A DNA stretch of 38,706 nucleotides, taken from positions 1-38,706 of the forward strand of contig JAPYTK010000029.1 in assembly GCA_029941785.1 (NCBI GenBank), read 5' to 3'. This document shows positions 74 to 15,394 of this stretch, piece by piece; position 1 is the stretch's first letter; each line of letters starts with the position of its first letter. This DNA is from Polyangiaceae bacterium. Lineage in GTDB: Bacteria > Myxococcota_A > Polyangia > Polyangiales > Polyangiaceae. The translations under genes and the position numbers were made by a program. The notes below the pieces were generated by a model that was not told the origin of the DNA, did not search any database, and saw only the letters and a program-made list of their open reading frames with translations.

Positions 74-697
74 CTAAAAGACGCGCTGCCCGACGATGAT
101 GGCATCGCCCGCCTGCAGGGCGATATCCGCAATGGAGTTGTCGACGATCGCGGTCACGTCGACGATGGCCACGACCGTCTTTCCGCCCGCAACCTTTCGG
201 CGCACGGTCACCCGACTCTTCGCCGCCAGGGAATTGAAACCCCCAGCCTGTGAAATCGCGCGCAAGAGGGTCATTCCTGGCTCGAGCGGCAACGAGCCCG
301 GCTTCCTGACCTCGCCGAGTACCTCGACGCGCTTGGACCGGTAGGCCTTGATACTCACCGAGACACTCGGCTGCGTGAGGATTTGTTCGCTGACGAGCCG
401 GGCTCGGATCAGAGCACTGATTTCCTGAGGCTCGAGACCGACCACCTTCAACCGTCGGATGTAGGGAATATCGACCGTGCCATCGGGCGCCACGGTGTAC
501 TCGGTCGGCAACTTGTCCTCGCCAACGATCTGGACGACGAACACATCCCCGACCCCAATCGCCGTCGCTTCGAGCGGCGGAGGCAGGTTCACCGAGCGCG
601 GAGGCGCGCCGCAGCCCATACTGGCGGCGACCACCCCGAGAAGGACGATCACTCGAACCACGGTCCCAAGTACTCGGGTTTTACCACTCCAGCTCAT
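74..697 (-). CDS. Short OPX (Wza-like) polysaccharide export lipoprotein
   Basis: A 207-aa protein with a signal peptide and a lipobox ending at Cys29 (ASMGC), so probably lipid-anchored in the envelope. Residues about 45-125 read as a polysaccharide-export (PES) domain with the typical 'GVGDVFVVQI' and 'PDGTVDIPY' segments. An SLBB-type domain follows ('VEVLGEVRKPG', 'LLRAISQAGG'). The protein stops at Phe207 without the C-terminal amphipathic helix with which classical Wza crosses the outer membrane. Short OPX proteins of this kind work in Myxococcus xanthus with a dedicated outer-membrane beta-barrel (EpsY/EpsX, ExoA/ExoB, BpsA/BpsB). The gene immediately upstream, 93 bp away on the same strand, encodes such a barrel. 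The start is ATG at 697; the ribosome binding site is weak. The family is confident; the exported polymer is unknown. Confidence 0.88.
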   Translation of the reverse strand: MSWSGKTRVLGTVVRVIVLLGVVAASMGCGAPPRSVNLPPPLEATAIGVGDVFVVQIVGEDKLPTEYTVAPDGTVDIPYIRRLKVVGLEPQEISALIRARLVSEQILTQPSVSVSIKAYRSKRVEVLGEVRKPGSLPLEPGMTLLRAISQAGGFNSLAAKSRVTVRRKVAGGKTVVAIVDVTAIVDNSIADIALQAGDAIIVGQRVF

Positions 698-790
698 CGC
701 AATCCGTCAGATGCCTCATCCGCCAGTATCATTCAAGCTCCCACGCGCGCCCGGTCATCGGCATCGAGCTACGATGAGCCGCCCGCGGGC

Positions 791-2182
791 CTACATGAAC
801 CAACGTAGGCCCAACAGCGCCGTGATCTGCTTGTAGGCGATGGGATCGGTGAACTGAGTGGAGGTCGCCTCATCCGTATAGGTGACCGTCGTCTCGCTGA
901 AGTACCCGTCGAATCCGATTTCGACGTTCACCCCCACGTAATTCTTGATGCGGTACTCACCGAATAGGTTCGCGTCGACGCGCGCATCGGTCCAGCCGCC
1001 GGGCGTGCTGTAAGAAACGTCAGCCGACGTTTGCTGGGCGGGATAGACGACAGCCGCACCGCCGCCTTCCATCGACAGCAAGAACGAGCCTCCGAAAAGA
1101 TAATTGAAGCGTAGATAACCGCGGTTGGTCTCGCTGAATGTGCCGAAGTAGGCGTCCTGGAAGTCGCGCTCAAAACCCACACTCAGCGCACTGAATGCGC
1201 CCGAAATCGCGAGAGGGTTGCTCTGGGGCTTGTTTCCCAGATACCACTTCAGTTCGAGTTGGCCGATGAAACTATCGAAGTCCTCTTCGGTATCGTAGAA
1301 GCTCGCGCCCCAGCCACCGAGCGCGAGAACGCTGAAGGACGGTGTGATCAAGCCGTTCAACCCCAAGCGCGTCCGGACCGGCGTCGACCCACCCTTGAGC
1401 GTCACGCCAGTACCCGTCGTCGGGTAGTTGATGAAGCCTATCCGAGCATCGTACATCAACGCGGTACGTGGGTAGAAACGCCAGCGACCACGGGTGGACA
1501 CGGTGTGCTCCTGATTGTCGAGGCCAGTCAAGGACGTGTCCTCGAAAAACCGCCCACCGAATTCGTAGCCGAGACTCCAGTCGAGCAGCCCGCTGCCCGG
1601 CCGCCATGTCAGCAGAGTCCCCGCCTTCGGCAACCACCGGTTGTACGTGGTGCTCCCAACGACGGAGCCGCTTTGCGTGGGACGAATCGAGCGGGCGACG
1701 CTGCCGTCGATCGTCGCGCTCCACTCACGACCAGGCAGGATGTCGAGACCCAAGTTGAAGCGACCACCAATGTCGCGCTGCTCGGTCAAGCGCTCCTTGT
1801 CAAAATCGCTGCCCGATATGGGAAAAAACTCGTTGTAGGTCGCCAGAAGTTCCGTCCGAAAACCGACGCTCGGCGGAGGCCCGTCGCCGCGGCGGTTCTT
1901 CCCCAGCGTCGCAAGGGAGAGTGACGGGCTCACCCGCAAGCGCATCGAGCCCACAGGGGAACCACCGATGTCCGATTCCGCCCGATGGAAGTAGTTCGAA
2001 TCGTAGCCAAATGTCGCGCCGATCCCCGGATGAAACTCGAAATTACCAAAACGAATTCCAATACCCTCGCGGTACCGACGGTCCTCGAGCCACGTCTGCT
2101 CTTGCCCGCTTGCCGTCGAGCTCGACAGTCCCGAGCCCAGCATCACGGAAGCGCTCAGTATGGCGGTGACAGCTCGTTTCAT
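791..2182 (-). CDS. Outer-membrane beta-barrel protein, probable polysaccharide translocon partner
   Basis: A 463-aa protein with a clear signal peptide (basic start MKRAV, hydrophobic stretch, cleavage near 'STASGQ'). The rest shows alternating polar/aromatic strands such as 'WSLGYEFGGRFFE' and 'GYLRFNYLFGGSFLLSMEGGG', and ends in 'LLGLRWFM', a typical terminal beta-signal with aromatic residues. It resembles the BBP2-like or EpsX/ExoB-like barrels encoded beside exopolysaccharide genes. The adjacent short OPX gene downstream supports a composite OPX/barrel export channel. I chose the ATG at 2182; an in-frame TTG lies three codons earlier at 2191. No strong Shine-Dalgarno is seen for either. 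The barrel assignment is firm; the number of strands and the substrate are inferred from the partner gene. Confidence 0.8.
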   Translation of the reverse strand: MKRAVTAILSASVMLGSGLSSSTASGQEQTWLEDRRYREGIGIRFGNFEFHPGIGATFGYDSNYFHRAESDIGGSPVGSMRLRVSPSLSLATLGKNRRGDGPPPSVGFRTELLATYNEFFPISGSDFDKERLTEQRDIGGRFNLGLDILPGREWSATIDGSVARSIRPTQSGSVVGSTTYNRWLPKAGTLLTWRPGSGLLDWSLGYEFGGRFFEDTSLTGLDNQEHTVSTRGRWRFYPRTALMYDARIGFINYPTTGTGVTLKGGSTPVRTRLGLNGLITPSFSVLALGGWGASFYDTEEDFDSFIGQLELKWYLGNKPQSNPLAISGAFSALSVGFERDFQDAYFGTFSETNRGYLRFNYLFGGSFLLSMEGGGAAVVYPAQQTSADVSYSTPGGWTDARVDANLFGEYRIKNYVGVNVEIGFDGYFSETTVTYTDEATSTQFTDPIAYKQITALLGLRWFM

Positions 2183-2315
2183 GTGAGGCAAAGGAAGCGG
2201 TTAAGTTCCGGGTTCAGGGTCCGGCTAGAGTCCTTAACACAGGCAGGTCAAAGCCGGCAGAACCTCACGGCACGGAAGAGAAAATGATGGCGGTCGGTGG
2301 ACACGAGGAGCGCCG

Positions 2316-2855
2316 TCACTTGTAGCAACTCGCACACGCAGGCGGTTGTGAGATCGTGAGCGTCTCGGGAAACTGCGAGGGGTCTTCCGCAGGCAATTCG
2401 ACGTCGATTTCGACCGTGACCGAGCTCTCCCCGACAAATCCAACCTCTTTGCCAATGCACTGGTCAGCCTCGGCACTGAGCTGCTGAGATCGCGAATACA
2501 GCACGTTGAGAATGGTAAACTCGTGATTACTCAACTCGGAGTCGGCCCCTGTGACAGCGGACTGAAGCGCCCGCATGCGCTCGTTGGCTGAACGCAAGAG
2601 AACGTCGATTTGATTGAGTTTGTCGTTCAAACACAGGGTCTTGACCACATCTCGTTGTTTTCGGGCCGTTTCGAGCTGGCGCCGGACGCGCGAGCGGACC
2701 TGATCCATGCTCGCCATGTGCTGCTTGGCCGAATCGAGAGTGTCGTTTGACGGCGTCCGAGCGCCGACGGCCGGGGCCTGCGCGCTCGCGGCTCCAGCCA
2801 GAAACACGATGCTCACTGCAACTACCCAATTTTTCAAGCTTTTCTTCTGCATCAT
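2316..2855 (-). CDS. Secreted coiled-coil protein with Cys-rich C-terminus, unknown function
   Basis: A 179-aa protein with a signal peptide ('KNWVVAVSIVFLAGAASAQA'). The middle (about 40-130) is highly charged and probably helical or coiled-coil ('MDQVRSRVRRQLETARKQRD'). Four cysteines are present: one in 'KTLCLND', one in 'ADQCIG', and two in the C-terminal 'ACASCYK'. This suggests disulfides in the periplasm or metal binding at the tail. It lies between the FHA-like/AgmX-type gene (176 bp upstream) and the outer-membrane barrel gene (133 bp downstream), all on the minus strand. A purine-rich 'GGAAAGGG' precedes the ATG at 2855. I recognise no family; a role in the same envelope system is inferred only from position. 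Confidence 0.75.
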   Translation of the reverse strand: MMQKKSLKNWVVAVSIVFLAGAASAQAPAVGARTPSNDTLDSAKQHMASMDQVRSRVRRQLETARKQRDVVKTLCLNDKLNQIDVLLRSANERMRALQSAVTGADSELSNHEFTILNVLYSRSQQLSAEADQCIGKEVGFVGESSVTVEIDVELPAEDPSQFPETLTISQPPACASCYK

Positions 2856-3031
2856 GGCGCCCTTTCCGAGGATGCCGACCGACTATAAGCGGCCGTTGCG
2901 GTACGTGTCAACGAAGGGCCCACTAGCCCTGTAAGGCTAGGTGCCTCAACCGCGCCCGATGTTCATCTTCAAGTGATTTTCCCAAAGATTTTTTCCCACA
3001 CTCACAAGGGTCGGTTCGTGAAGCGAAACGC

Positions 3032-4492
3032 CTACTGTTTCATGAAGGTGATCGGAATCGAAATGATGGCCGAGCCACTGTCGGGAGGCGAGAATCCGCC
3101 ACCCCGTACGACAGCCTTGAGGCAAGGCACGATGGCTCCGAGGCCACCACCACCACCGCCGCCGACGCTCAGCACCTCGCCGTTGGGTCCGATCCTCGCG
3201 ACCAAGCTCACGGATCCGGCCATTTCGGGATTGATATTGAGACCACGCTGGTAACAATTTCGGAATCGTCCGCGCATGCGAGCCACGACGGACGAAGCGT
3301 TGCCCACCTTGCCGCCAGCTACGCCAGCACCGCCCACGATAGCGCTGCCTTTCGGTCCTTGGACCTTTTTGGCCGTTCCAGCCGCTGCCGCTGCCTTCCC
3401 CGTGCCGCCGGTATTGCCGATATCGCTGAGCTTGCCGCCGCCGCCGGCTCCGGGCTTGACGGCTCCCGAGCCGCTTCCGCCGCCCATATTGAGACCACCA
3501 GGATCGCCCGATCCGGCACCTGCACTCGATTGCGCCGCGCTATCGAGCAAACCTGTGGGTACGTTGCTCTCGCTGAGCACCTCGCCGGTGTTGACGCCGC
3601 CCTGGCCCACCGCGCCCAAGGTCTGCACATCGAGGGAGGCTAGCTCGCTTTCGAGTTCGGCTGCCTTGGTGTTGGCCGCGGCCTTGGCCTCAGCTGCAGT
3701 ATCGGTCTTCTTGCCCGCGCCTTTCGCGGGATTTTTTTGTGCGTTGCGGGCTGGGGTTTTGGTCGTGGCCGCGGTCGTAGCGTCGGCTTTCGCGGTCGAC
3801 ACCGTCGGTGCTTCGACGGGAACGGGCGGCGCCGGAGGTCGGCTCTCGGCCGCCGCCTCGACCAGCATTCCGACGACCCGATCCTCGTCGACGATCGGAT
3901 CCATCCAATCGGAATAGACCAAAGCGACCAAGAAGAAGTGAACCAGAAAGGAAAACGCCGCGACAATGGTCGTAAACCAATCGATCTCGCCGCCCATGCG
4001 CTGCTGCACACTCACGGGGAGCTGCGGCCTCGGCTGAACCGGGGGCGGAAAAACGAACTGGAACAGGAAGGTCGTCTCGCCGATGACGATCTTGCCGCGA
4101 GACTCCTCGGACAGCCTGACGCGGTAATAACGCGTGCTGCCCATGGATCCGGTCTTCGCTTGCGCTTTGAGTGCGCCCAGATCGCTGATCCCGGTCTTTA
4201 ACGCAACGCGGCCAGTCATCCCATCGATGAAATTGATGTGGTAGTCCTGCCCGATGATCTCGAAGAGCCGGAAGTTGGCCGGGATCTTCTTCGTCGGAAC
4301 GACGAACATCGCCTTCTCGCTCGGTCCAATGGTCACCGAGCCACGTTGCTTAATCAGGCGTTCATCGATGACCTTGCCACCTTGGACAACGCCAATACGC
4401 AAGATTTTCGGCCCCGACGCCTGCGACACGGCGCGCATCACGGCGGTCATACGGCCGGGTCGCGCTGTGGATTGGGCCTGCTGCTGGGTCAT
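3032..4492 (-). CDS. FHA-like / single-TM / AgmX-PglI C-terminal domain protein (GltG/NfsG-like)
   Basis: A 486-aa protein. Residues about 28-145 form an FHA-like beta-rich region ('SVTIGPSEKAMFVVP', 'FRLFEIIGQDYHI'), apparently degenerate. One transmembrane helix follows at about 172-193 ('FSFLVHFFLVALVY'), then a long Ala/Lys- and Gly-rich linker. The last 85 residues are an AgmX/PglI-type, TonB-like domain ('RMRGRFRNCYQRGL', 'GSVSLVARIGPNGEV', final 'SIPITFMKQ'). This order of cytoplasmic FHA, one TM, flexible periplasmic linker and TonB-like tip is that of Myxococcus GltG/NfsG, which couple an inner-membrane motor to the outer envelope. The start is ATG 4492, preceded by GGAGTAGGA; an upstream start at 4579 lacks such a site. 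It is the last gene of the putative Glt/Nfs-like operon. Confidence 0.75.
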   Translation of the reverse strand: MTQQQAQSTARPGRMTAVMRAVSQASGPKILRIGVVQGGKVIDERLIKQRGSVTIGPSEKAMFVVPTKKIPANFRLFEIIGQDYHINFIDGMTGRVALKTGISDLGALKAQAKTGSMGSTRYYRVRLSEESRGKIVIGETTFLFQFVFPPPVQPRPQLPVSVQQRMGGEIDWFTTIVAAFSFLVHFFLVALVYSDWMDPIVDEDRVVGMLVEAAAESRPPAPPVPVEAPTVSTAKADATTAATTKTPARNAQKNPAKGAGKKTDTAAEAKAAANTKAAELESELASLDVQTLGAVGQGGVNTGEVLSESNVPTGLLDSAAQSSAGAGSGDPGGLNMGGGSGSGAVKPGAGGGGKLSDIGNTGGTGKAAAAAGTAKKVQGPKGSAIVGGAGVAGGKVGNASSVVARMRGRFRNCYQRGLNINPEMAGSVSLVARIGPNGEVLSVGGGGGGGLGAIVPCLKAVVRGGGFSPPDSGSAIISIPITFMKQ

Positions 4493-4667
4493 TCCTACTC
4501 CAATGGGTTCGCCTGCCAAGGAAACGGCGGCGGTTCGTATACAAAGCCTACACTGCGCTAGGCAACGGGTCCACCTCACAACAGTGCCGTATGGTCCGCC
4601 TCAACGGCATCGTGGTGGAAAATGTTAGAGGCACGGTGTTCACGACGGCTGAGCGGGAAGAAAGTTC

Positions 4668-5240
4668 TCAAACGCGACGACGACGACGCCACCGCATCTG
4701 GCGGCGCTCCGGTATCGGTTCATCGATAATGTCCTCGATAAGGGCGCCGACGAGCGCTTCAGCGATGTCCCGCTGCCTCAGGACCAATCGGCCCGCCTCA
4801 CGGCCGGCAGCATGGCAGGCCGCAGCCGACACCGCCGCCATCGGAAGTAGCCACAAGAGCTGCCGTCCCACCCCAGCCAAGTGCCCAGCCAACGAGCACA
4901 GGAGGTGCGCCGCAATAGCCAGCCACACGCAGATCGTCGGCAGACGCGCTCGACTGACAAAAACGTGCTCCAGCTCCGCGAGCTGTTCCCCGGCCACGGC
5001 CAAGCGTTCAGGACTCGAGCGGGTGTCCGCGACGCGAAGCGCAAGCTCGGTCGGCCACGCCCGGTCCTTCTCGGCCAACACGCGCAAACGCTGCTCGGGA
5101 GGTAGAGGACGGAGCTCGCGGAGCAAGGAGCGCGTCAAGCCGAGGCGGCGCAGGCTCGCCGGATAGCGCCACGATGCGAAGACACACCACCCCGCCGCCA
5201 CCGCTGCGGTCACGATGGGCCACCAGACAGCCAGGCTCAA
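4668..5240 (-). CDS. Inner-membrane protein with three probable TM segments, GltF position
   Basis: A 190-aa protein with a hydrophobic N-terminus ('WWPIVTAAVAAGWCVFASW'), a charged soluble stretch of about 75 residues ('LLRELRPLPPEQRLRVLAEKD'), two closely spaced hydrophobic segments ('CVWLAIAAHLLCSLAGHL', 'LLWLLPMAAVSAAACHAAG'), and a strongly basic C-terminus ending RRRRRV. This one-loop-two topology recalls TolQ/ExbB/MotA-family proteins, but I do not see the family's conserved motif, so the resemblance is topological only. Its ATG (5240) overlaps the stop of the upstream gene in an ATGA junction, implying translational coupling. In M. xanthus, gltF lies between gltE and gltG; this gene and the 99-aa gene occupy the same place. 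Confidence 0.7.
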   Translation of the reverse strand: MSLAVWWPIVTAAVAAGWCVFASWRYPASLRRLGLTRSLLRELRPLPPEQRLRVLAEKDRAWPTELALRVADTRSSPERLAVAGEQLAELEHVFVSRARLPTICVWLAIAAHLLCSLAGHLAGVGRQLLWLLPMAAVSAAACHAAGREAGRLVLRQRDIAEALVGALIEDIIDEPIPERRQMRWRRRRRV

Positions 5241-5536
5241 AACGGCGACTTGTAGATGGCCGCGCTAATACGGTGAAGAAACGGCTGCACGAGCTCGGAC
5301 AAGGTCAGCTTCGGACGGATACGGGCAACATCGACCGCAGCAATGGGCTTCTGGATACGCCCCGTGATGGTGACCTCGGCGAGCGTGATGACGCCGCGTG
5401 GACGTCTCTCCTTCGACTTTTGTGCCAGCGCAGACGAACTGAACAACATACTTGCCGCCAGCACGGCCGCGGCTGTGATCGTCGAGCGCCACATGGGAAC
5501 CATCACCTTAAAGCCTAGCATACCGCGTTGTCTCAT
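5237..5536 (-). CDS. Small secreted protein, unknown function
   Basis: A 99-aa protein with a signal peptide around residues 15-39 ('TITAAAVLAASMLFSSSALAQ'). The mature part is about 60 residues, with a possible beta-strand segment 'VITLAEVTITGRIQKP' followed by 'LSELVQPFLHRISAAIYKSPF'. ATG 5536 has a GAGAGG 7 nt upstream; internal ATGs at 5521, 5503 and 5494 could also serve. It starts 16 bp after the TPR lipoprotein gene and overlaps the next gene by ATGA. It is therefore almost certainly cotranscribed with the TPR set and probably a periplasmic component of the same complex. I recognise no family. Confidence 0.72.
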   Translation of the reverse strand: MRQRGMLGFKVMVPMWRSTITAAAVLAASMLFSSSALAQKSKERRPRGVITLAEVTITGRIQKPIAAVDVARIRPKLTLSELVQPFLHRISAAIYKSPF

Positions 5537-5552
5537 GGTCCAGCCTCTCGCC

Positions 5553-6893
5553 CTACTGTGTGGGCGGTGGAGGCGGTGGAGGTGGAGGTGGAGGCTGAGG
5601 AGCGTTGGCCGCCGCTAGCGCGTCGATCTCGGCCTTCTTGAGCTTGGCGCGCTTCAACAGTTCTTCGTGATCGCTCGGATCCGTCTTACGTCGCAACTCC
5701 TTGTATTTCTCGAGCTCGACGATCGCCGCCTCGACCTGTTGCTTCGACGTCATACCCGAAACCTTGGGGGCGAAGACGTAGAGCAGCCCGAGATTGTAGT
5801 GAACCTGCGGAAGTGCCGAGTCGCGTTGCGCCACCCACTCGAACTCCTTCTTCGCTTCGTCGAAGCGTCCCATGAGGCGCAAGGCATCGCCAATGCTCAA
5901 GTGCAAACCTATATTGGAGGGATCGTAACTGAGGGCCTGCTGAAGAACGGGCAAGGCCTGCTGAGCATCGCCGGACTCGAGCAGGTAGGTGGCAAGCTTC
6001 AAACGGGCAACCACGATGTCGGGCCTGAGCTGCACGACCTTCTTGTACGCGCCCATCGCGGCCGCGCGCTCGTTCTTCTCGTCCCAAATCGTCGCTCGAA
6101 GGAGGTGAGCCTCAGCGTTTTCCTTGTCACGAGGCGGGTTGTCATCACCAAAGCCGTCCAAAATCGCTTTCAGCGCATAGAGAGACAGATCGAGACGTCG
6201 CTGGCGAAAATGATCGCGCGCTATCGTCAACATCGCGGGCCGACAATCCGGATCGACCTTGAGGGCCTCCTGAGCGATGCGCTGCGCCGAAGCCGTGTCT
6301 TTTTGCAGCGACTTCACCTCGGCCAAGGCCGCCGCAACGCGTGCCGCCTTCGGCAGCCTCCCGCGCTTGTCGGTAAGAAAACTGTCGGCATTGGACACAG
6401 CCCCCTGCTTCGCCATGGCCAAGCCGTAGGCGACGATCGCGTCTTCGTACTTCGGTGCGATTTGGTACGCCCGTTGATAGCTCGCTATCGCCTGGCCCCG
6501 ACTCACCCTTTCCTGCACCGTGCCCAAGGCGTAAAACGCCTGCGCTGCACGAGGATCGTACTGCGTCGCTTGGTTGAAGTAGGCCATCGCCGTTTGCAGC
6601 TGACCGGAGCGAAACGCCGCCTGCCCCTGTTGATATGAAGCCTGCGCCTGCGGGCTCATCGGGGGCAATCCTGAGGTATTTGCTGGCGGCAGAGGCGCAG
6701 GTGGAGGCGCCGCTGGTGGCGCGGTCGGCGCTGGAGGTGCGGTTGCGGTCGGAGCTGGCGGCGGATACGCGGTCGGCTGAGGATAGGCCGTCGGATACGG
6801 CGTCTGGGGGATCTGCGGCGGCGGAGTCGCGTCTTCGCAGGCCACGAGCCCTGCCGCGATCAACAACATCACAGCGGCGTCGCCGTACCTCAT
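5553..6893 (-). CDS. TPR lipoprotein (GltE/AglT-like)
   Basis: A 446-aa lipoprotein: signal peptide with lipobox ending at Cys19 (GLVAC), followed by a Pro/Thr/Ala-rich spacer to about residue 75. Several TPR units follow ('AQASYQQGQAAFRSGQLQTAMAYFNQA', broken here into 'GQAAFRSGQLQTAMAYF' and 'AFYALGTVQERVSRGQ', then 'ALSYDPSNIGLHLSIGDAL'). It ends in an uninterrupted run of about eleven prolines before TQ. AglT/GltE of M. xanthus is a TPR lipoprotein encoded directly after the large TPR protein AgmU/GltD, and the same order is seen here. Its ATG overlaps the stop of the 1444-aa gene (ATGA at 6890-6893). It is probably an outer-membrane-anchored periplasmic scaffold. The polyproline tail is unusual and may bind a partner. 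Confidence 0.8.
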   Translation of the reverse strand: MRYGDAAVMLLIAAGLVACEDATPPPQIPQTPYPTAYPQPTAYPPPAPTATAPPAPTAPPAAPPPAPLPPANTSGLPPMSPQAQASYQQGQAAFRSGQLQTAMAYFNQATQYDPRAAQAFYALGTVQERVSRGQAIASYQRAYQIAPKYEDAIVAYGLAMAKQGAVSNADSFLTDKRGRLPKAARVAAALAEVKSLQKDTASAQRIAQEALKVDPDCRPAMLTIARDHFRQRRLDLSLYALKAILDGFGDDNPPRDKENAEAHLLRATIWDEKNERAAAMGAYKKVVQLRPDIVVARLKLATYLLESGDAQQALPVLQQALSYDPSNIGLHLSIGDALRLMGRFDEAKKEFEWVAQRDSALPQVHYNLGLLYVFAPKVSGMTSKQQVEAAIVELEKYKELRRKTDPSDHEELLKRAKLKKAEIDALAAANAPQPPPPPPPPPPPTQ

Positions 6894-9800
6894 TTCAGCG
6901 CTCCTGGTACCGGTGCTGGCAGCACCTGCGTCTTGACGTCCGCGGTCAGGCCGCGGCGCATGCGAAGGAACATCCCAGACTGGTAATTGATGGGTTGCTT
7001 CGTCTTCGGGTCCTTCACATTCTGGGCGTACTCTCGGAGCTTCTCGTCACCGAGGATATCGGTAAAGAAGGCGAGCCGGCGCACCGCATTATCTGCAGCA
7101 TCGACGCGCACCTGCCAGGCCCGAGCCCAGATGACCGCTTCACCGTAACCGGCGACCATCACCTTATCGACCGCGCTGAGATTCTCGCCGCGGGTCTTGC
7201 GCCAGAAGGCTCGACGATTGGCTCGGAAGGTGTCGCCCAGGGTACACGCGCGATCGTTACCCGTCTCCTCGCACAGTTTGTCGGCCTTCTTGAGGGTCTT
7301 CTCTTCTTTGTCCGTATAGAGCTTCAGCCCGGGCGCGCGAGCATTGTAGAGGCCCGTTCGACACGAGTCGTACAAGGAGCCCTGCCTGGCGCGCGCGGCG
7401 ACGGCCCAGCGCCGCGACTCGTATTTGAGGATGACCTTCTGCAATTTGTCGAACCAGCCCTTGGCGTCCACTTCGACGTCCTTCGTAAACTCGTCGAGAA
7501 CGTCCTTCATCACCCCCTTGTACCGGTGGTGACCGCTGTCGTAGTCAAAGTCCTTGCGAATCTTCGCGTGCAGGGCCCGGTACTCGCACTCTGCCGCCAT
7601 GTCGGCCTGTTTACTTCCCAGGGCCTTGTTTCGGCCATCGTCGTCCTGACCCACGGTCGCCTTGTAGGTGTCGTAGGCGCCGATCGTGCGACCACACCAG
7701 TTCTTGTACGACTGATCGCCACCTGCGCGGCGCAGCTTCGCTGCGTGATAAGCCGCCTGTACCGTGTAGGCCGCGGCGTTGGAGTTGTTCGAGTTCGCGC
7801 GATAATAACCGTCCATCGCGTCCATCGCCGCGAGTCGCGCCCGCCGATTGGCCCCCCGGTCGATCCCCCGCGCGTCCCAGGCTTTGAGATCCACCGTCGC
7901 CACAAGCCAGTCGATCTCGGCACGTTGTTCTGCCGGCGGGCTGAGCGAGACAAAGGTCGTCCGAGCGTCACGCATCTTGTCCCGCTCACCAATGCTCGCG
8001 TAGAGAAAGACCGCGTTGCGCGCGGCTCGTCTTCGGTGCTCGTTCTCGAACCGGGTTTTCTTCGAGATCTTGTCGTAGGTCGCGGCAGCACCGCGGTAAT
8101 CGAAAAAGAGAACGTTTGCTTTGGCGAGTTCGTCGTAGGCAAGCTTGAGGAACTTGACTCGCTCCGCATACTTATCGGGTTGCGGAGGAACGCCTTTGGC
8201 CGAGTCTCCCTTTTGAAGTTTATCGAGGCGCTCGCTGTTGCCGTACTCCTTGATGAACAATTCGTACATCTCGATGGCCTGGTCGTACTCGCCAACCTGC
8301 TTGTACGCCGAGGCGCCGAGCATGGCAGCCTCTGGGGCTTCGTCGCGCGCAGGAGCCTTGGCGAGCGCTTCCTTGTACAGAGCTGCCGCACGGCGCCACT
8401 GCTGGTTGCGAGCCGGGCCATCCGCCATCGCTTTGGCCTTGTTGTAGGCTTTTGCGGCGTCGACATAATAGCCCCGCGAAATGGTCGGGTCGCTGATCCC
8501 CGACTCCTTCACCTTTTGTTCTTCGTCGACCGCGCAACTCTGTCGCTTGGACGCCTCGGCAAGAGCGCGGCCCCCTTCCGTATCGCCCTCCTGGTTGGCC
8601 ATGGTGATGAGCTTTTCCCATGCCAGGTAGCCATATTTCGTCTTGCCGCATTGCTGCAGGTAGATCGGTTGCAAGCGACGCTTCGCTTCCGGAAACTGCC
8701 CGTAGAGGAACGGCACTTCTCCACCGGTGTACGTGAACTGGTCGTGGTTCTTGTAGGGGTCAGCGTCTGCAGGCACGTGGGCAACGTATTCGTCGAACGC
8801 CGTGATCATCTGTATGACGGGTGCAGGCACCGGGTCGGTGCGAAACTTCTTCGCGTCCCCTTCCCCTTCGAACTCGAGCTGTTTGCGCCTCGGGAAGCCC
8901 TTCGCGCCGCTGGTCAACTCGTCCAGCTTGTAGTTGGCAACGACCATTTGCTGCGCAACGCGTACGACCATCAGGGCGGCGGGCTGCAAATACTTGTTGT
9001 CCTCGTTGGAGTCGCGCACCTCTCGGGCCGTCGTTTGCGCACGACTCACGTCCTTGGCGGTCGGCAGCGCGGCCTCGACATCACCCTCAACGAAGCCCAG
9101 CCGCTGAACCTTGAGAACGACGATGTTGGTGTACGCATCCGCAAGCCAAAACCGGCTCTCGTAGGCATCCTCAGAGTTTTCGTCCTGCAACAAGTAGGCG
9201 CCCCAAGCGCGCCCCGCCGCCTGATATTCGGCGAGCGCCCGTGCAAAGTTCGCGCTCTTCTCGGCGTCGTTGTCCGCCCTGCGGCCCAGCCCTACGTAAC
9301 GTCGAGCAGCGTTCGTGTGGTCCGCCGCTGCGCGACGCAAACCATCACGCACCAAGCGCTCCGCGGCACGAATCGCTTCTGGATCGTCCTTGTTCGCGTC
9401 GACCCATTTCGGCGTATTGTCGGGCGTCGCCACGTAATTGATGAGCTCGCCGCGAGCCGCCAGCGCTTTCTCCAAATACGCCTCACGCTGGGCACCAGTA
9501 GCTTGGCCGGCGAGCTGTTCGTACACCTCGGCGATTTGGTTCTGCACAAACGGTGCATCGCGATGCATCGGCCAGTTCTTGACGATCAGCTCGTCGATCT
9601 CGATGAGATTTTGGTACTGGTTGTACTCTTTGAATTCGACCGCAAGCGCCTTGTAGATATCGACCGTCCACGGCTTGTCCTGCGGGACGAGGGTCGCGTC
9701 TCGTACACGATCGATGGCCACGTGCATCTTCTGCTCGATGATGGCGCTATCCGTCTCGAGGTCGAAAATGTCGTTGCGCGCGATGTACGGATCCTGCTGC

Positions 9801-11224
9801 GCTGGTCCCTCAAAATCGAGATACGTGACCGAGCCGGCAATGTACGCGTAGGCCTCCACGCGAAAATCGGCTCCGGTGTTGCCGGTGCGCTTTTCCTCCG
9901 CGTCGGTGTAGTTCAGCAGCCGAACGAATTGCTCGACCGCGGTCTTGTAGCGCTGCTGCTTGTAGAAGGTCCACGCGAGCTTGTACATCGAGACGCCATA
10001 GACCGGCGGCTTCTTGTAGCGCATCGACTGTCGATAGGCGCTCTCGGCCCGATTGAGGTTGAATGGCCCGCCGTAGGGGTCGATCTCCTCGAAGTGAAAG
10101 TCACCGATTTGCCACCAAATCTCAGCCATGTACCGGGGGTCTTCGCCGGGCGTGGCTTCCTGCGCGATGGACCGACAATCAGCCGGATAGGGATCCTTGA
10201 ACGTATCCTCGTCATCTTCGACTTTGGACGTGTCCTCAGCCGCAGCAGTGACGGACGCCTCGAGCGGCTTTTCTGCCGCGCGCCGGCGAACTTCGTCGAG
10301 GGGCAAGGGGTGACGTTGCATCCACCCGAGCCACCAATCGGAATCGTGATCCTGGGGCAAACGGACGATCGTATCCTTGTTCGGATCTTTGGGATCGGGC
10401 GCAACCGGGTAACGAACCCGGTTGTGGCAAACCAAGGAACGCCAGACCTGATGCGCCTCGTGGATGCGGCCCGAGTCGTTGTAGGCATGACCGAGGTAGT
10501 AATACACGCCGGCCAGCTCACGGTACTGATCGTATTCCCGAACGATCCGCTTGTAGAGCGCGATGGCAGGTCGAAGCTCAGGTTCGGGCGGTGCCGCGCC
10601 AGGCGCCAGTTGAATGTTATCGACGATCTCTCTGGCCCGCTCTTCGTACAGAGCGGCAAGACGAAACATCGCGTCCGGCGTACTCTGCGGGTTGGAGTTG
10701 GCGCCGCTGTATTTCGCCACGAAAACTTCGAGTCGCCGAATCGCCTCTTCGCGTGCCGCCCGCAAGCCTTGTGATTCGATGTTGATCTCGCGATCGAGGG
10801 CCGCGAGGATCCGCTTGCGACGTTCCTCATAGTGGTGGCGAATGATGCGCGTAATCGTCGCTCGGTAATCCTTGGCGTCCCGTTCGTATCGTTCCGCTTC
10901 TCGCTGCAGCTCGCGCAACCCGGCAAGCTGCTCGGCCGTTGGATCCGGCGGGGGCTTGGGCTTCTTCTTGGCCGCCGGGACGGTTGGAGGCGCCACCCGA
11001 GCGGCTGGCGTGGGCGCGATGGGAGCTCGCGCCGCAGTGTTGGTCGCGGCCGGTGCAGGCGCGCCCGGATTGGTCCCGGTCGTGGCTGCAGGACTCCCCG
11101 CCGGGGGGGCAGCAGGAGGTGGAACTGGCTGAGGCTGCGCACCACCTACCGTCGCCCAATTGACGCCGATCAGAAGAGCAAGCCATCCGACAGCTCGTGA
11201 ACCGATTCTACGCCCGTCCATCAT
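6890..11224 (-). CDS. Giant periplasmic TPR protein (GltD/AgmU-like)
   Basis: A 1444-aa protein with a signal peptide ('VGWLALLIGVNWATVGGAQ'), an Ala/Pro-rich stretch to about residue 95, and then a long helical-repeat protein with many TPR-like pairs ('ALYKRIVREYDQYRELAGVYYYLGHAY' in pieces such as 'YKRIVREYDQYRELAG', 'EMYELFIKEYGNSERL', 'ALYKEALAKAPARDEAPEAA'). The M. xanthus counterpart AgmU/GltD is a roughly 1200-aa periplasmic TPR protein, so size and location fit. Both ends are joined by ATGA overlaps, to the 789-aa gene upstream and the TPR lipoprotein gene downstream. A 1379-aa open frame on the opposite strand is a by-product of GC-rich codon usage. The structural class is certain; orthology to GltD rather than the paralogous NfsD is not resolved. 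Confidence 0.85.
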   Translation of the reverse strand: MMDGRRIGSRAVGWLALLIGVNWATVGGAQPQPVPPPAAPPAGSPAATTGTNPGAPAPAATNTAARAPIAPTPAARVAPPTVPAAKKKPKPPPDPTAEQLAGLRELQREAERYERDAKDYRATITRIIRHHYEERRKRILAALDREINIESQGLRAAREEAIRRLEVFVAKYSGANSNPQSTPDAMFRLAALYEERAREIVDNIQLAPGAAPPEPELRPAIALYKRIVREYDQYRELAGVYYYLGHAYNDSGRIHEAHQVWRSLVCHNRVRYPVAPDPKDPNKDTIVRLPQDHDSDWWLGWMQRHPLPLDEVRRRAAEKPLEASVTAAAEDTSKVEDDEDTFKDPYPADCRSIAQEATPGEDPRYMAEIWWQIGDFHFEEIDPYGGPFNLNRAESAYRQSMRYKKPPVYGVSMYKLAWTFYKQQRYKTAVEQFVRLLNYTDAEEKRTGNTGADFRVEAYAYIAGSVTYLDFEGPAQQDPYIARNDIFDLETDSAIIEQKMHVAIDRVRDATLVPQDKPWTVDIYKALAVEFKEYNQYQNLIEIDELIVKNWPMHRDAPFVQNQIAEVYEQLAGQATGAQREAYLEKALAARGELINYVATPDNTPKWVDANKDDPEAIRAAERLVRDGLRRAAADHTNAARRYVGLGRRADNDAEKSANFARALAEYQAAGRAWGAYLLQDENSEDAYESRFWLADAYTNIVVLKVQRLGFVEGDVEAALPTAKDVSRAQTTAREVRDSNEDNKYLQPAALMVVRVAQQMVVANYKLDELTSGAKGFPRRKQLEFEGEGDAKKFRTDPVPAPVIQMITAFDEYVAHVPADADPYKNHDQFTYTGGEVPFLYGQFPEAKRRLQPIYLQQCGKTKYGYLAWEKLITMANQEGDTEGGRALAEASKRQSCAVDEEQKVKESGISDPTISRGYYVDAAKAYNKAKAMADGPARNQQWRRAAALYKEALAKAPARDEAPEAAMLGASAYKQVGEYDQAIEMYELFIKEYGNSERLDKLQKGDSAKGVPPQPDKYAERVKFLKLAYDELAKANVLFFDYRGAAATYDKISKKTRFENEHRRRAARNAVFLYASIGERDKMRDARTTFVSLSPPAEQRAEIDWLVATVDLKAWDARGIDRGANRRARLAAMDAMDGYYRANSNNSNAAAYTVQAAYHAAKLRRAGGDQSYKNWCGRTIGAYDTYKATVGQDDDGRNKALGSKQADMAAECEYRALHAKIRKDFDYDSGHHRYKGVMKDVLDEFTKDVEVDAKGWFDKLQKVILKYESRRWAVAARARQGSLYDSCRTGLYNARAPGLKLYTDKEEKTLKKADKLCEETGNDRACTLGDTFRANRRAFWRKTRGENLSAVDKVMVAGYGEAVIWARAWQVRVDAADNAVRRLAFFTDILGDEKLREYAQNVKDPKTKQPINYQSGMFLRMRRGLTADVKTQVLPAPVPGALK

Positions 11225-13590
11225 TCCTCCGGCTCACCGCTGTCATCGAGAACTTCTTCGAGCTCCCGTTCGAGTCGGGCATCCGTGCGGGCGCGCTCGA
11301 CTTTGAGTCGTCGTACCCGCATGAGTTGTTCCTCACGAAGCTCCCAGGCCTCTTCTGTGATCCCCACATCGGCACGCAACACAATGCTCTTCAGCCGGTC
11401 GCGCACGTTGATGAAGTTCCGCATCGCCACCTGCCCAACGACCATCCGCGCTTCTTCGTCGAGCTGCTCCAGACGCCCAGAATAGTCCACGATATGAGCC
11501 GTTTCCTGTGAGACCGCCTTTCGCAGTTCCTTCGTCTTGGCGCGGACCGTACGGTCGATGTCCCCGACCATCGCTCCAAGTCGCGCGTCGACAGCATCCG
11601 CTGCCGCCAGGACCTCAGCCGCCCGCGCAGCATACGCCCTCAGCTCGCCACCCTCTCGCTGCGCGAGCGCGACTTCTTGGACCACGAGTTGCCGGTAGGC
11701 CGCCCGCACACGGGCGTCTTCCACGAACCGGCGGTCGCCAAATCCAACCTGGATCTTGCCCGCTTCGGTAAAACTTCTGAGCCTTGTGATTTGCTCTCGA
11801 TAATAGAAGATGAGCCGCTTTTGCTCGACCAAGGCCATGCGGTAGCGCTCGACCTGAGCAGGGCTCCTCACGACTCCGGCTTGAGGGCCATCACGCAACA
11901 TCCGTTCGAGCCCATTCACGGTCGCCTGCAGCGTGTCGATCTCCAGTTCGAGACGCTGCAACCCCTGCGAGGTGCGGTTCCACTGGCGATTGGCCTGCGT
12001 CTCGCGTCTGCTGAAATCGGCAGAGTCGACAGGGATCAACTTGAGTCGACGCTCGTAGGCCTTTCGTTGCCGACGCAACTGCAACAGCTGACCGCTCACG
12101 GAAAACTCATCGAGGCCTTTGGCCAGTCTCATGCGCGCCAAAGCCACCGAATTGATCAACCCGAGAGCCCGTTCCGCCCCGACGCGCAGTGCAGGCACCG
12201 CGCGGATCCGGTTCGGCGAAGCGAGCACGGCGTTGAGTCGGTCGATCATCTCGTTGGACTCTTTGATCAGCCGGCGACTGGCGGTCACATCGTCGATCAC
12301 AGCGAAAGCCATGTCGCCATCGGTACCTTTGCGCGCCCAACGAACGACGAGCGGCGGCAATGTGCCACCGGCCTCGAACAGTTCGAGCTGATCGCGGCTC
12401 AGCATGTCAAAGAACACACCGGCGTCCGTGTTCTTCCCGAGGAAGCCATCGACCCGAGAACGCATCCGATCGTAGTTGCCGCGCACGCTCTCGTAGACCT
12501 TGAAGGACTTTTCGAACTGGCCAGCGCGCAACATCAAGTCGCCGCGGAGCAAGGCCGCATCCGCCACATCGTCACTGTTCGGGGCGGCGACCGACAACAC
12601 CTCGAGCGCACGCATGGCGCGCATCACGTCACCGAGCCTAACGTACACCCAAGCGAGCTCGTAGAGCATCGTCCCAAACTCTGGTGATTCGCGTTTGATC
12701 TGATTGTAGGCAGTCACCGCCTGGGCCCAGTCGCCGCTCTCGTACAACAGGCGTCCAATCGCGAGGTTTGCGAGGCCAACCACATGGCGTTGCTCGCTCG
12801 TCGTCGCCTTGATCTTCGTCACACCCCGAAACAACTGAATCGCCGGCGCGTAGAGCGCGGTCGCCACAGGCTTGTTGCGCTCTTTTCCGGCGGCCGGATC
12901 CGTCCCCGCTGCCATGCGCACCGCGATGGTGCCAAGCAAGTAGCGAGCCTGATGCGCAAAGTTGCTATCGAGCGGCACCGTCATCAGCGATGCGCGCGCG
13001 CCGTCGAACTTCCCTTGGGCAAAGAGACCCTTGCCCTTGGCGTAGGCGATGCCACTGCTCGCGACAGCCGGCACCATCGCCAACTTGGCGAAGACCGCGT
13101 CGAGCTCTTTCGGCTGTCTTCGTCGCAACGCGATGTCTACGAGCCGCAGCACGGCTCGTTCCTGGAAAGGCGCAAACCGGCGCTCGCCGCTTCGCGACAA
13201 CACGAGCGCGAAGCTGCGCCGGGCTGACAGCAGCTGCTTGTCCTTGAAATACGCCTCACCGAGCAATTGCAAGGCGTCGGGAAAAGCGGTCGGATGCGCT
13301 CGATGCTTCTCGGTGACCTCGTTGAGAACGTCGATCGCCCGATCGTAGTCCTTGACCCCCATGAGCAGCACCGCGTCGGCGATGCGCTGCTCGGGCTTGC
13401 GCTGCTCTGCCTTGACGGCGCTCGCGATAGCACTCTCGACCGTCGGAACGTCTTTCGCCGCGGCGGATATCCGCGCTCGTGCTGTCTTCAGGGCTCGGTC
13501 GGGCTCAGCGGCGTGAGCGGCGGAGCCAACGAGGCACAGCGCGATCGCCGCACACCATGCACACCATGAATTGTGCCGAGTCAGACGCAT
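11221..13590 (-). CDS. Periplasmic TPR/coiled-coil protein (GltC/NfsC-like position)
   Basis: A 789-aa protein with a signal peptide ('CAAIALCLVGSAAHAAEPD'). The N-terminal half has TPR-like helix pairs ('VLNEVTEKHRAHPTAFPDALQLLGEAYF' in part, 'FDGARASLMTVPLD', 'WAQAVTAYNQIKRESPEFG'). The C-terminal half (about 480-789) is long, charged and coiled-coil-like, ending in 'ARLERELEEVLDDSGEPEE'. It overlaps the 1444-aa TPR gene by ATGA, which indicates translational coupling. GltC is the TPR protein of the Glt set in M. xanthus, though there it is encoded at a separate locus with gltA and gltB. Calling this gene GltC-like is an inference from architecture and linkage; a periplasmic scaffold role is likely. 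Confidence 0.75.
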   Translation of the reverse strand: MRLTRHNSWCAWCAAIALCLVGSAAHAAEPDRALKTARARISAAAKDVPTVESAIASAVKAEQRKPEQRIADAVLLMGVKDYDRAIDVLNEVTEKHRAHPTAFPDALQLLGEAYFKDKQLLSARRSFALVLSRSGERRFAPFQERAVLRLVDIALRRRQPKELDAVFAKLAMVPAVASSGIAYAKGKGLFAQGKFDGARASLMTVPLDSNFAHQARYLLGTIAVRMAAGTDPAAGKERNKPVATALYAPAIQLFRGVTKIKATTSEQRHVVGLANLAIGRLLYESGDWAQAVTAYNQIKRESPEFGTMLYELAWVYVRLGDVMRAMRALEVLSVAAPNSDDVADAALLRGDLMLRAGQFEKSFKVYESVRGNYDRMRSRVDGFLGKNTDAGVFFDMLSRDQLELFEAGGTLPPLVVRWARKGTDGDMAFAVIDDVTASRRLIKESNEMIDRLNAVLASPNRIRAVPALRVGAERALGLINSVALARMRLAKGLDEFSVSGQLLQLRRQRKAYERRLKLIPVDSADFSRRETQANRQWNRTSQGLQRLELEIDTLQATVNGLERMLRDGPQAGVVRSPAQVERYRMALVEQKRLIFYYREQITRLRSFTEAGKIQVGFGDRRFVEDARVRAAYRQLVVQEVALAQREGGELRAYAARAAEVLAAADAVDARLGAMVGDIDRTVRAKTKELRKAVSQETAHIVDYSGRLEQLDEEARMVVGQVAMRNFINVRDRLKSIVLRADVGITEEAWELREEQLMRVRRLKVERARTDARLERELEEVLDDSGEPEE

Positions 13591-13686
13591 TGTGCCCCCG
13601 ACCTCGCCCAGCGTGTGTGGCTAGCTGTCCGCAACGAATTCATCTTTGCGAGGCTATCCTGGAAAATCGCGTGATCCAAAGACTCA

Positions 13687-14439
13687 CTATTTGGTGTTTG
13701 GGGCGAGCCCCGTAGCTACCTTTTCGAGGAAGCGAACGGCCGGCCGCTCCTCGAGCGGGGTTGTGACTCCGCCCTTTTCGTAGGCCAGCACACGGAGTTT
13801 GGTCGTCTTGCCTTCCACCGCCGTGAAGGAGTGACTCGAGCGAACCTCGAATCGATAACCTCGCAGGTAGGAGAACACCCCGTAGCCGTGACCCCGCAAG
13901 TTGACGAGCACCTGCAAGGTATGATCCCCAGGAGGGATGGAACCACTGAAGACGGGAATGACCTGCTGGTCGGCCAGCACGCCCGAACGGTCGGTCTTGT
14001 TGTACTGCACCGCACCGTCGAGAACGATGAGCGCACGGGTGAGGCGGAATTGGTTCGATAACTTGTTCTCGAACTGAATGACCGCACGAGAACCAGCGGC
14101 TCCACCGGAGAGGATCGTCTCACTCAAGAGCGACAGACGCGTATGGCTCCGTCGAATTTGCTCCTTCAGTTGGTCGATGCGCTGCTGAAGATCTCTCAGA
14201 CGCACCGTGTACGTTGCGCCGTCCATCGCTGGTGCTGCAGTCGGAACTGCAGCGGCCGGCGGGGCACCGGGTGGTACGCCTGGTGGCGCAGCAGGTGCAA
14301 TGGGAGCTGTGGCCACGGGCGGCGGAGCCGTCGCGGCCGGCGGCGGCGGAGCCGTCGCGGAGGGCGGCGCCTGCGCGCCGGCGGGGGTTGCGACCATGGC
14401 AATGGCCACGACCATCCCGAACATCCGTCGGAACTGCAT
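13687..14439 (-). CDS. Secreted Ala/Pro-rich protein with coiled coil and beta-domain, first gene of the Glt/Nfs-like set
   Basis: A 250-aa protein from ATG 14439, preceded by GAGG four bases upstream; an upstream start at 14499 adds an implausible N-terminus. It has a signal peptide ('MFGMVVAIAMVATPAGAQ'), then an Ala/Pro linker of about 60 residues. A short heptad-like helix follows ('LRDLQQRIDQLKEQIRRSH'), and then a beta-rich region with 'GDHTLQVLVNLRGHGYGVFSYLRGY' in part, which resembles PEGA/Ig-like domains. The Ala/Pro linker makes such proteins prone to being mislabelled dihydrolipoamide acetyltransferase; no lipoyl or catalytic motif is visible. It is 96 bp upstream of the 789-aa gene on the same strand and is the likely start of the transcription unit. 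Confidence 0.75.
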   Translation of the reverse strand: MQFRRMFGMVVAIAMVATPAGAQAPPSATAPPPPAATAPPPVATAPIAPAAPPGVPPGAPPAAAVPTAAPAMDGATYTVRLRDLQQRIDQLKEQIRRSHTRLSLLSETILSGGAAGSRAVIQFENKLSNQFRLTRALIVLDGAVQYNKTDRSGVLADQQVIPVFSGSIPPGDHTLQVLVNLRGHGYGVFSYLRGYRFEVRSSHSFTAVEGKTTKLRVLAYEKGGVTTPLEERPAVRFLEKVATGLAPNTK

Positions 14440-14777
14440 GTAATCCTCGGTAATTAGCTTGAGCAAGTCGTTTCGTGAAGTGCGCCGGCCGGTATACACC
14501 AGATCCGTACGCGGGGACTCCCGTTTAGCTTAGTAGGCCTTCGCCCCCGCATGCAATGTTGGAAACTGGCTCGGTGTTCGGTTCTTCGCCTCGAAACTGG
14601 GGCAACCCCACCCTCGGAATGGGTTATGGTTCCCACGATGAGCATCCGGCCGGTAGATCTTTCGTACCGCTCGACCGTCCTAGCAGGCCATAAGGCCCGC
14701 AATCGGCGGGTCTGGTCTCAGGGTCCAGCTCCTTCACGGCTGCGCGCCATCAAATGGTCGCGACAGGAGCGGGATTC
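14440..14777. other. Divergent intergenic region between the Glt/Nfs-like operon and the sigma-factor gene
   Basis: These 338 bp should carry the promoters of both divergent units. I see a direct repeat of GAAACTGG (14562-14569 and 14593-14600, 31 bp apart), an inverted repeat TGGGG-CAA-CCCCA at 14597-14609 region, and a TATGGT that could be a -10 element at 14625-14630 on the plus strand. No convincing -35 box accompanies it. A small open frame runs through the region, but nothing supports it as a gene. Confidence 0.5.
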
Positions 14778-15389
14778 ATGATCGAGCGCCCCAACGAACT
14801 GTCCGACGAGGTCCTCATGATGCGCTACCAGACTGGCGACCACAGCGCACTCGCGCTCCTCGTCAAGCGCCACAAGACGCCGATGTTCAATTTCTTCTTA
14901 CGGCAGCTTCGCGACCGCAACTTGGCGGAAGATATGGTTCAAGACCTCTTCGTGAAGCTCGTGCGCAAGGCGGGCACATTCAAACACGAATCGCGCTTCA
15001 CTACATGGGCCTACACTGTCGCCAGAAATCTCTGCATCGACCAGTTGCGTAAGTTATCGCTGCGTAGACACCGGTCTCTCGACGCCCGCACAACACCAGA
15101 CGGTCCCACGCTCGGTGAACGGGTCGCCGATGACCGACCCGAAGCGGAGGCGGATCGGAGCGCCGTGAGCGCCGACATCGCCACGCGCGTCACCAGAGCG
15201 GTTGAAGACCTCCCCGCGGAACAGCGCGAGGTCTTTCTTCTCCGCCAGCAGGCCGGCGTACCGTTCAAGGAGATCGCGAGAATCACCGGAGTCTCGGAGA
15301 ACACCGCCAAAAGTCGTATGCGATACGCCCTCGAGCGCCTGCAAACCGCTCTGGCCGAGTACGAGGATTACGCGCGAGCGCTGAGGTAG
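14778..15389 (+). CDS. ECF-type RNA polymerase sigma factor
   Basis: A 203-aa sigma-70-family extracytoplasmic-function sigma factor. Region 2 includes 'LAEDMVQDLFVKLVRKAGTF' and 'FTTWAYTVARNLCIDQLRK', and region 4 includes 'DLPAEQREVFLLRQQAG' and 'FKEIARITGVSENTAKSRMR'. Start choice is ATG 14778, which has AGGAG eight bases upstream; the in-frame ATG at 14754 has none. The stop is followed five bases later by the start of an anti-sigma-like gene, so the two are translationally coupled. It is divergent from the Glt/Nfs-like operon, and control of that operon, of itself, or of the downstream lipoprotein is plausible but not shown by any recognised promoter motif. Confidence 0.92.
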   Translation: MIERPNELSDEVLMMRYQTGDHSALALLVKRHKTPMFNFFLRQLRDRNLAEDMVQDLFVKLVRKAGTFKHESRFTTWAYTVARNLCIDQLRKLSLRRHRSLDARTTPDGPTLGERVADDRPEAEADRSAVSADIATRVTRAVEDLPAEQREVFLLRQQAGVPFKEIARITGVSENTAKSRMRYALERLQTALAEYEDYARALR

Positions 15390-15394
15390 GCACC

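Follow-up and report, generated by a model that had tools for sequence, protein, structure and literature searches.

In Myxococcus xanthus, the AglRQS motor is unlinked to the complexes it serves and drives both the Glt and the Nfs machinery, and AglRQS-Nfs transports a spore-coat polymer that is exported through OPX proteins (PMC3858216). Short OPX proteins of the class 3 (D1D2) type have been described (PMC9603273, PMC9601211), and 18 strands are reported for the WzpX/S/B barrels. One OPX/barrel pair, WzaB/WzpB (MXAN_1915/1916), belongs to the biosurfactant polysaccharide (BPS) pathway (PMC9603273); mxan_1915 is orphan-like, 1.016 Mbp from its pathway, and its counterpart in Sandaracinus amylolyticus is contiguous with Wzc, Wzy and Wzx (Islam et al., PMC7310880; also PMC7484181). 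In the G4 cluster of M. xanthus the gltD homologue is MXAN_1922, to which no known function was assigned (Luciano et al., PMC3169522), and MXAN_1925/1926 are mglA/mglB (PMC3983030). The window analysed here is an entire contig of 38,706 nucleotides (JAPYTK010000029.1, our C29) from the assembly of a Polyangiaceae bacterium (6.03 Mb, 98.8% complete), and it carries a block of ten genes in which three loose ends appear to meet: the function of the G4 Glt-like cluster left open in 2011, an orphan wzaB a megabase from the BPS pathway, and export via short OPX/barrel pairs, which is not known to have an energy link to the envelope. On balance, we favor the view that the block is a trans-envelope machine of the Glt/Nfs kind, in which a GltC/D/E/G-like scaffold together with A, F and X would serve an OPX/18-strand-barrel translocon made of Y, the barrel and OPX, the two halves working together.

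Glt-like scaffold and its linkage to the exporter genes

All ten genes lie on the minus strand within positions 74-14439, in keeping with the original prediction that they share one strand, in the order A250, C789, D1444, E446, F99, X190, G486, Y179, B463 and OPX. The contig ends 73 bp past the OPX stop, and our view of the block reaches to that point. Because tetratricopeptide repeat (TPR) proteins cross-match, profiles of the block families were compared by hhalign, all pairs, with those of the canonical Glt cluster of the same genome (C136) and its relatives. C789 aligned with canonical GltC at 99.9% (E 1.9e-34, 537 columns), D1444 with GltD at 100% (E 3.7e-53, 1125 columns), E446 with GltE at 100% (E 8.8e-55) and G486 with GltG at 99.9% (E 2.2e-36), while off-diagonal pairs were mostly near zero and the top TPR cross-matches reached 64-83% with E values of about 1e-6 to 1e-5. 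These alignments bear out the GltC/GltD homology that had been proposed for the two periplasmic TPR proteins. For D1444, profile-profile comparison was the test of choice, since the NCBIfam GltD model matched neither this protein nor canonical GltD; its Pfam matches were weak TPRs only. F99 is like GltF in position and size, and its profile-profile match is weak (12.6%). Thus C, D, E and G are, as judged by their profiles, homologous to GltC, GltD, GltE and GltG, and we hold with high confidence that the parts of the block are what they are called here.

G486 aligns to GltG only past the FHA domain, from position 174 of the NCBIfam profile and position 227 of our own profile. An FHA domain in G486, which had been part of the first description, was therefore rejected, as no Pfam match appeared at E<=1 and the GltG alignment starts after FHA; the AgmX-type part of that description holds, with the AgmX/PglI C-terminal domain at 1.8e-9. 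For A250, no known family and no confident PDB fold match were found.

The block is not the canonical Glt locus of this genome. In a tree of C proteins, the C family of the block groups separately with an SH-aLRT of 99; canonical GltC (99) and a third paralogous group fall elsewhere. The canonical cluster on C136 holds GltC (3.9e-72), GltE and two OMP_myx_plus barrels; the GltA/B-type barrels sit with that cluster, and counterparts of GltA, GltB, GltH, GltI, GltJ and GltK are absent from the block. Within the order, the third GltC/D-type group occurs with an A250-like protein and a barrel (L103-L107, L109) and is perhaps of the M. xanthus G5 type. Elsewhere in the window's genome, three tandem flagellin-like genes adjoin a protein with a GltJ-type C-terminal domain (L039, 12563-15906).

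Conservation was followed in 20 fetched loci of the order, 80 named Polyangia loci and 20 loci spread over the phylum. A250 was present in 20/20, 76/76 and 19/19 loci of the three sets, respectively. Within the order, no locus with enough DNA lacked A, D, E, F or G, and Y and the barrel occurred in 18/19 and OPX in 17/19; among the named loci that reach far enough, Y was found in 47/47 and the barrel in 43/43. OPX lies beside the operon in 11 of 15 phylum-wide loci, so the OPX pair does not neighbor this operon in one genome only, and chance linkage of the pair to the Glt-like operon is rejected by the survey. C789 itself has a match in 58/59 relatives, and its profile in 242/283 genomes of the phylum, where weak matches include other GltC paralogues. 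The block with its OPX linkage is deeply conserved across this myxococcotal order and the phylum Myxococcota.

Exporter trio, polysaccharide genes and the motor slot

The OPX protein has Poly_export and SLBB domains only, lacks a C-terminal membrane helix, is a lipoprotein and aligns with the D1-D2 region of Wza only, which classifies it by sequence as the class 3 (D1D2) type. By our own count, the AlphaFold model of B463 (pLDDT 80.2) has 18 membrane strands; its Foldseek matches are barrels, including AlgE and PgaA, and a sequence search of the PDB with B463 returned nothing relevant. No Poly_export gene other than OPX was found in the window's genome, and the block OPX is likewise the sole OPX in 7 of 38 other genomes scanned (G007, G030, G035, G037, G064, G158 and G122; G035 is counted by position, its OPX being on the same contig as its C789). 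Cys75 and Cys133 of Y179 are invariant (19/19). Y moves together with the barrel and OPX in four loci (L316, L317, L323 and L331), and near other OPX genes no Y was seen; we regard Y179 as a possible third part of WzaB-type translocons.

In these same four loci, the trio lies away from the Glt-like operon and adjoins a Wzc co-polymerase. In L330, an operon-type OPX, Wzy_C, Wzc and a glycosyltransferase share a contig with the Glt-like operon of that genome, and in six loci Wzc lies within a few kb of a complete or near-complete block (L098, L226, L227, L234, L242 and L244). The window's genome carries on C3 a Wzc with GNVR and kinase-type domains (40% identical to the L316 Wzc), glycosyltransferases and a GDP-mannose dehydratase; the Wzx/Wzy inventory covers about 0.69 Mb of its 6.03 Mb. 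The exported polymer would most likely be a Wzx/Wzy-type surface polysaccharide, the equivalent of Myxococcus BPS. An asparagine-synthase-type amidotransferase also recurs beside Wzc/OPX or in a polysaccharide locus (L316, L317, L330 and L344, including the window's genome).

The trio is predicted to be a transcription unit of its own. Of 63 distinct G-Y gaps, 62% contain a promoter that matches at least 10 of 12 consensus positions; the rate was 0.6% in shuffled sequence and 0% in the region upstream of G. The 63 gaps include near relatives and are not independent, and the set spans several families. The description of the genes as mostly joined by ATGA overlaps holds only for the C/D and D/E junctions. 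F/X overlap by 4 bases (TTGA), and the remaining junctions are gaps of 16-176 bp, with the predicted promoter in the G/Y gap.

Motor genes were sought with the AglR/Q/S of the window's own genome, where two divergent AglRQS-like triads stand back to back on C14 (L035, ~11.0-15.5 kb). As had been stated, the window contains neither motor genes nor GltA/B barrels. Its slot between F and G holds only X, with no ExbD partner, and in Polyangiales the F-G gap contains X only. Five relatives have a complete AglR-Q-S between F and G, four of one family (L228-L231) plus L235; each in-block motor consists by position of one ExbB-type and two ExbD-type genes, and Pfam confirms the motor genes of L230 (8.6e-27, 2.4e-10 and 1e-8) and the AglR of L235. 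In the C tree, L235 falls among Polyangia and L228-L231 lie far from it, a placement which suggests that the in-operon motor is ancestral.

Earlier and weaker tests of X gave 5.5% in hhalign to AglR and a sub-threshold Pfam MotA_ExbB match in one X protein. A larger profile of 68 X proteins, run against 12,844 open reading frames (ORFs), matched outside the X family only MotA/ExbB-family proteins at E<=0.01 (the next ORF was at 0.47), with scores of 5.7e-9 for the operon AglR of L230, 1.6e-7 for the genome's own ExbB and 7e-6 for its own AglR. Since only MotA/ExbB proteins were matched, X is read as a diverged motor subunit of AglR/ExbB ancestry. The two small envelope proteins of the original prediction are thereby recognized as secreted F99, in the GltF position, and X190. 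Two positions are threonine in AglR (7/7) and in none of the 68 X proteins; we take them to correspond to the pore residues of TolQ/ExbB. X is thus a relative by descent that, from its residues, is predicted to be no working motor subunit, and it is probably a non-conducting adaptor.

Coupled machine or conserved neighbors

In a coupled machine, an AglRQS motor would convert ion flow into force, which G would pass through the periplasm to lipoprotein E and the C/D scaffold; from these it would reach the translocon or the emerging polymer and move or extrude it along the envelope, much as AglRQS-Nfs carries the polymer of the spore coat. A motor was probably part of the ancestral block, and in Polyangiales only X would be left in its slot; there, energy, if used, would come from an unlinked AglRQS triad such as the two on C14. 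The notion of a one-locus form of such a machinery, raised when the locus was first described, is strengthened by relatives with AglRQS inside the block and others with Wzc beside it, and it is from this linkage that we infer physical coupling. Contact between the halves, energy use, movement and polymer identity are likewise inferred, by analogy with AglRQS-Nfs; what the sequences show is the parts, their homology, the linkage and, in some relatives, the motor within the block. A broader version, which we put forward only tentatively, is that an ion motor powers polysaccharide handling at the outer membrane, the Glt-like scaffold being the force-transmitting part of an energized OPX/barrel export that is ancestral in Myxococcota, and that in Polyangiales the channel-dead AglR relative X stands in for the in-operon motor and links the machine, as an adaptor, to a shared AglRQS. 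Should the block form a single machine, the root function of Glt/Nfs complexes may be that of engines for handling polymers, with gliding as a derived use.

The M. xanthus genes bear on this question. The seven steps from D to OPX in the block equal the seven tags from MXAN_1922 to MXAN_1915, which suggests that the block corresponds to the G4 cluster plus WzpB/WzaB; the tag numbers may also place the G4 block after mglA/mglB, the genes of the polarity switch. Among the papers found, the text of none names both MXAN_1922 and MXAN_1915/1916; a figure may show the neighborhood.

Several observations weigh against a coupled machine. The trio has a conserved promoter of its own and can be located away from the Glt-like operon; X lacks the channel residues, and in three families (f42, f23 and f26) the slot contains no X and no motor; and one genome (G054) has C789 but no Poly_export match. 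The equivalence with G4 is drawn from published locus tags, not from sequence. A polar mutation in MXAN_1922 had no appreciable effect on motility (PMC3169522), while deletion of wzaB alters swarming (PMC7310880); an internal promoter ahead of Y could explain why the polar mutant lacks a wzaB-like swarm phenotype.

The same promoter, the relocation of the trio without Glt-like genes, the five loci with Glt-like genes and no adjacent trio (L097, L233, L241, L243 and L245) and G054 would also fit two independent machines that are co-inherited, the trio exporting with Wzc alone and the Glt-like complex doing another envelope task (adhesion, lipid or protein transport, or tethering), linked by a shared need or an old neighborhood. 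We regard this as the main rival, less probable than the coupled machine. Against it, the linkage is kept over most of the phylum; two genomes without a strong C789 (G006 and G134) are also without a trio-type OPX, although one deletion could explain that. A serious though rather unlikely sub-case, overlapping with the coupled machine, is a Polyangiales complex that is no longer energized, in which X would be a relic and the Glt-like complex would act as a passive scaffold, holding or positioning the translocon. The loss of both threonines in 68/68 X proteins, the missing ExbD partner and the empty slot of other families agree with it, but the genome keeps two AglRQS-like triads elsewhere, an unlinked AglRQS drives Glt and Nfs in M. 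xanthus (PMC3858216), and G still has the architecture of GltG, for which contact with AglR is known. A second gliding machine would also be compatible with the homology to GltC, D, E and G, but we consider it very improbable: the C789 clade stands apart from canonical GltC, a canonical Glt cluster with GltA/B-type barrels exists elsewhere in this genome, the block has no GltA, B, H or K, and motility does not depend on the presumed counterpart in M. xanthus (PMC3169522).

Gene layout and comparison with known systems

Table 1. Features of the Glt-like/OPX block and their supporting evidence
Feature	Coordinates	Strand	Evidence and remarks
A250: secreted, Pro-rich linker, long helix (74-110), predicted eight-strand beta domain	13687..14439	-	AlphaFold pLDDT 79.6; first gene of block in every locus
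C789: periplasmic TPR protein, GltC-like paralogue	11221..13590	-	NCBIfam GltC 2.7e-12, partial, sub-cut-off; hhalign GltC 99.9%
D1444: large periplasmic GltD-like protein, weak TPRs	6890..11224	-	hhalign GltD 100%, 1125 columns
E446: GltE-like TPR lipoprotein	5553..6893	-	NCBIfam GltE 4.8e-23 (best match); hhalign 100%
F99: small secreted protein, GltF position	5237..5536	-	Below ORF-list cut-off; kept in nearly all loci; GltF match weak
X190: membrane protein, diverged AglR/ExbB/TolQ relative	4668..5240	-	X-only profile; TTG start provisional
G486: inner-membrane GltG-like protein, AgmX/PglI C-terminal domain, without FHA	3032..4492	-	NCBIfam GltG 4.5e-15; myxo_SS_tail 1.8e-9
Predicted sigma-70-type promoter ahead of Y, TTGACA-18-TATAGT	2882..2911	-	11/12 match to consensus
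Y179: small secreted protein, two invariant cysteines	2316..2855	-	Travels with barrel and OPX
B463: outer-membrane beta-barrel, 18 strands, predicted Wzp-type exporter pore	791..2182	-	AlphaFold pLDDT 80.2; Foldseek
OPX: short D1D2 class 3 lipoprotein, 207 aa	74..697	-	Poly_export 1.6e-16; SLBB 1e-14

Three further regions of the window were recorded. Divergent from the Glt-like operon, an ECF-type sigma factor is followed by a TPR/anti-sigma-like gene (14754-16495, plus strand). A secreted lipoprotein-like protein of 778 aa (29431-31767, minus strand) has no Pfam match and contains a DxSxS motif (IDNSRS) resembling the von Willebrand MIDAS; a von Willebrand A (VWA) protein is likewise how the gliding adhesin CglB has been described. 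On the same strand, 34158-36668 encodes an 836-aa protein with a C-terminal PF00912 transglycosylase domain (6.7e-46) and a long N-terminal part without family.

Among known systems, the G4 cluster with WzpB/WzaB resembles the block in placing a GltD-like gene seven tags from a class 3 OPX and its barrel, and the published S. amylolyticus locus and L316 of this survey are alike in having the OPX with Wzc. The GltC, D, E and G homologues of the core that Luciano et al. called group B (GltC, D, E and G with AglR, Q and S) are present here in one cluster, and the motor genes are not in the window. With Agl-Glt gliding machinery, the block shares GltC, D, E and G homologues, the order D-E-F-G and, in some relatives, an AglRQS-type motor inside the block, whereas its C belongs to a separate clade and it holds no GltA/B/H/I/J/K. 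Composite OPX/barrel translocons (EpsY/EpsX, ExoA/ExoB and WzaB/WzpB; PMC9601211) have the same D1D2 OPX and adjoining 18-strand barrel; in contrast to them, the block is tied to a Glt-like operon and has an extra small secreted partner, Y. Nfs with AglRQS and Exo likewise combines a Glt-type scaffold of GltC/D/E/G-like parts with an OPX-exported polymer, but the block, which is without GltA/B/H counterparts and without FHA, has A, X and Y in addition and keeps its exporter in the same locus.

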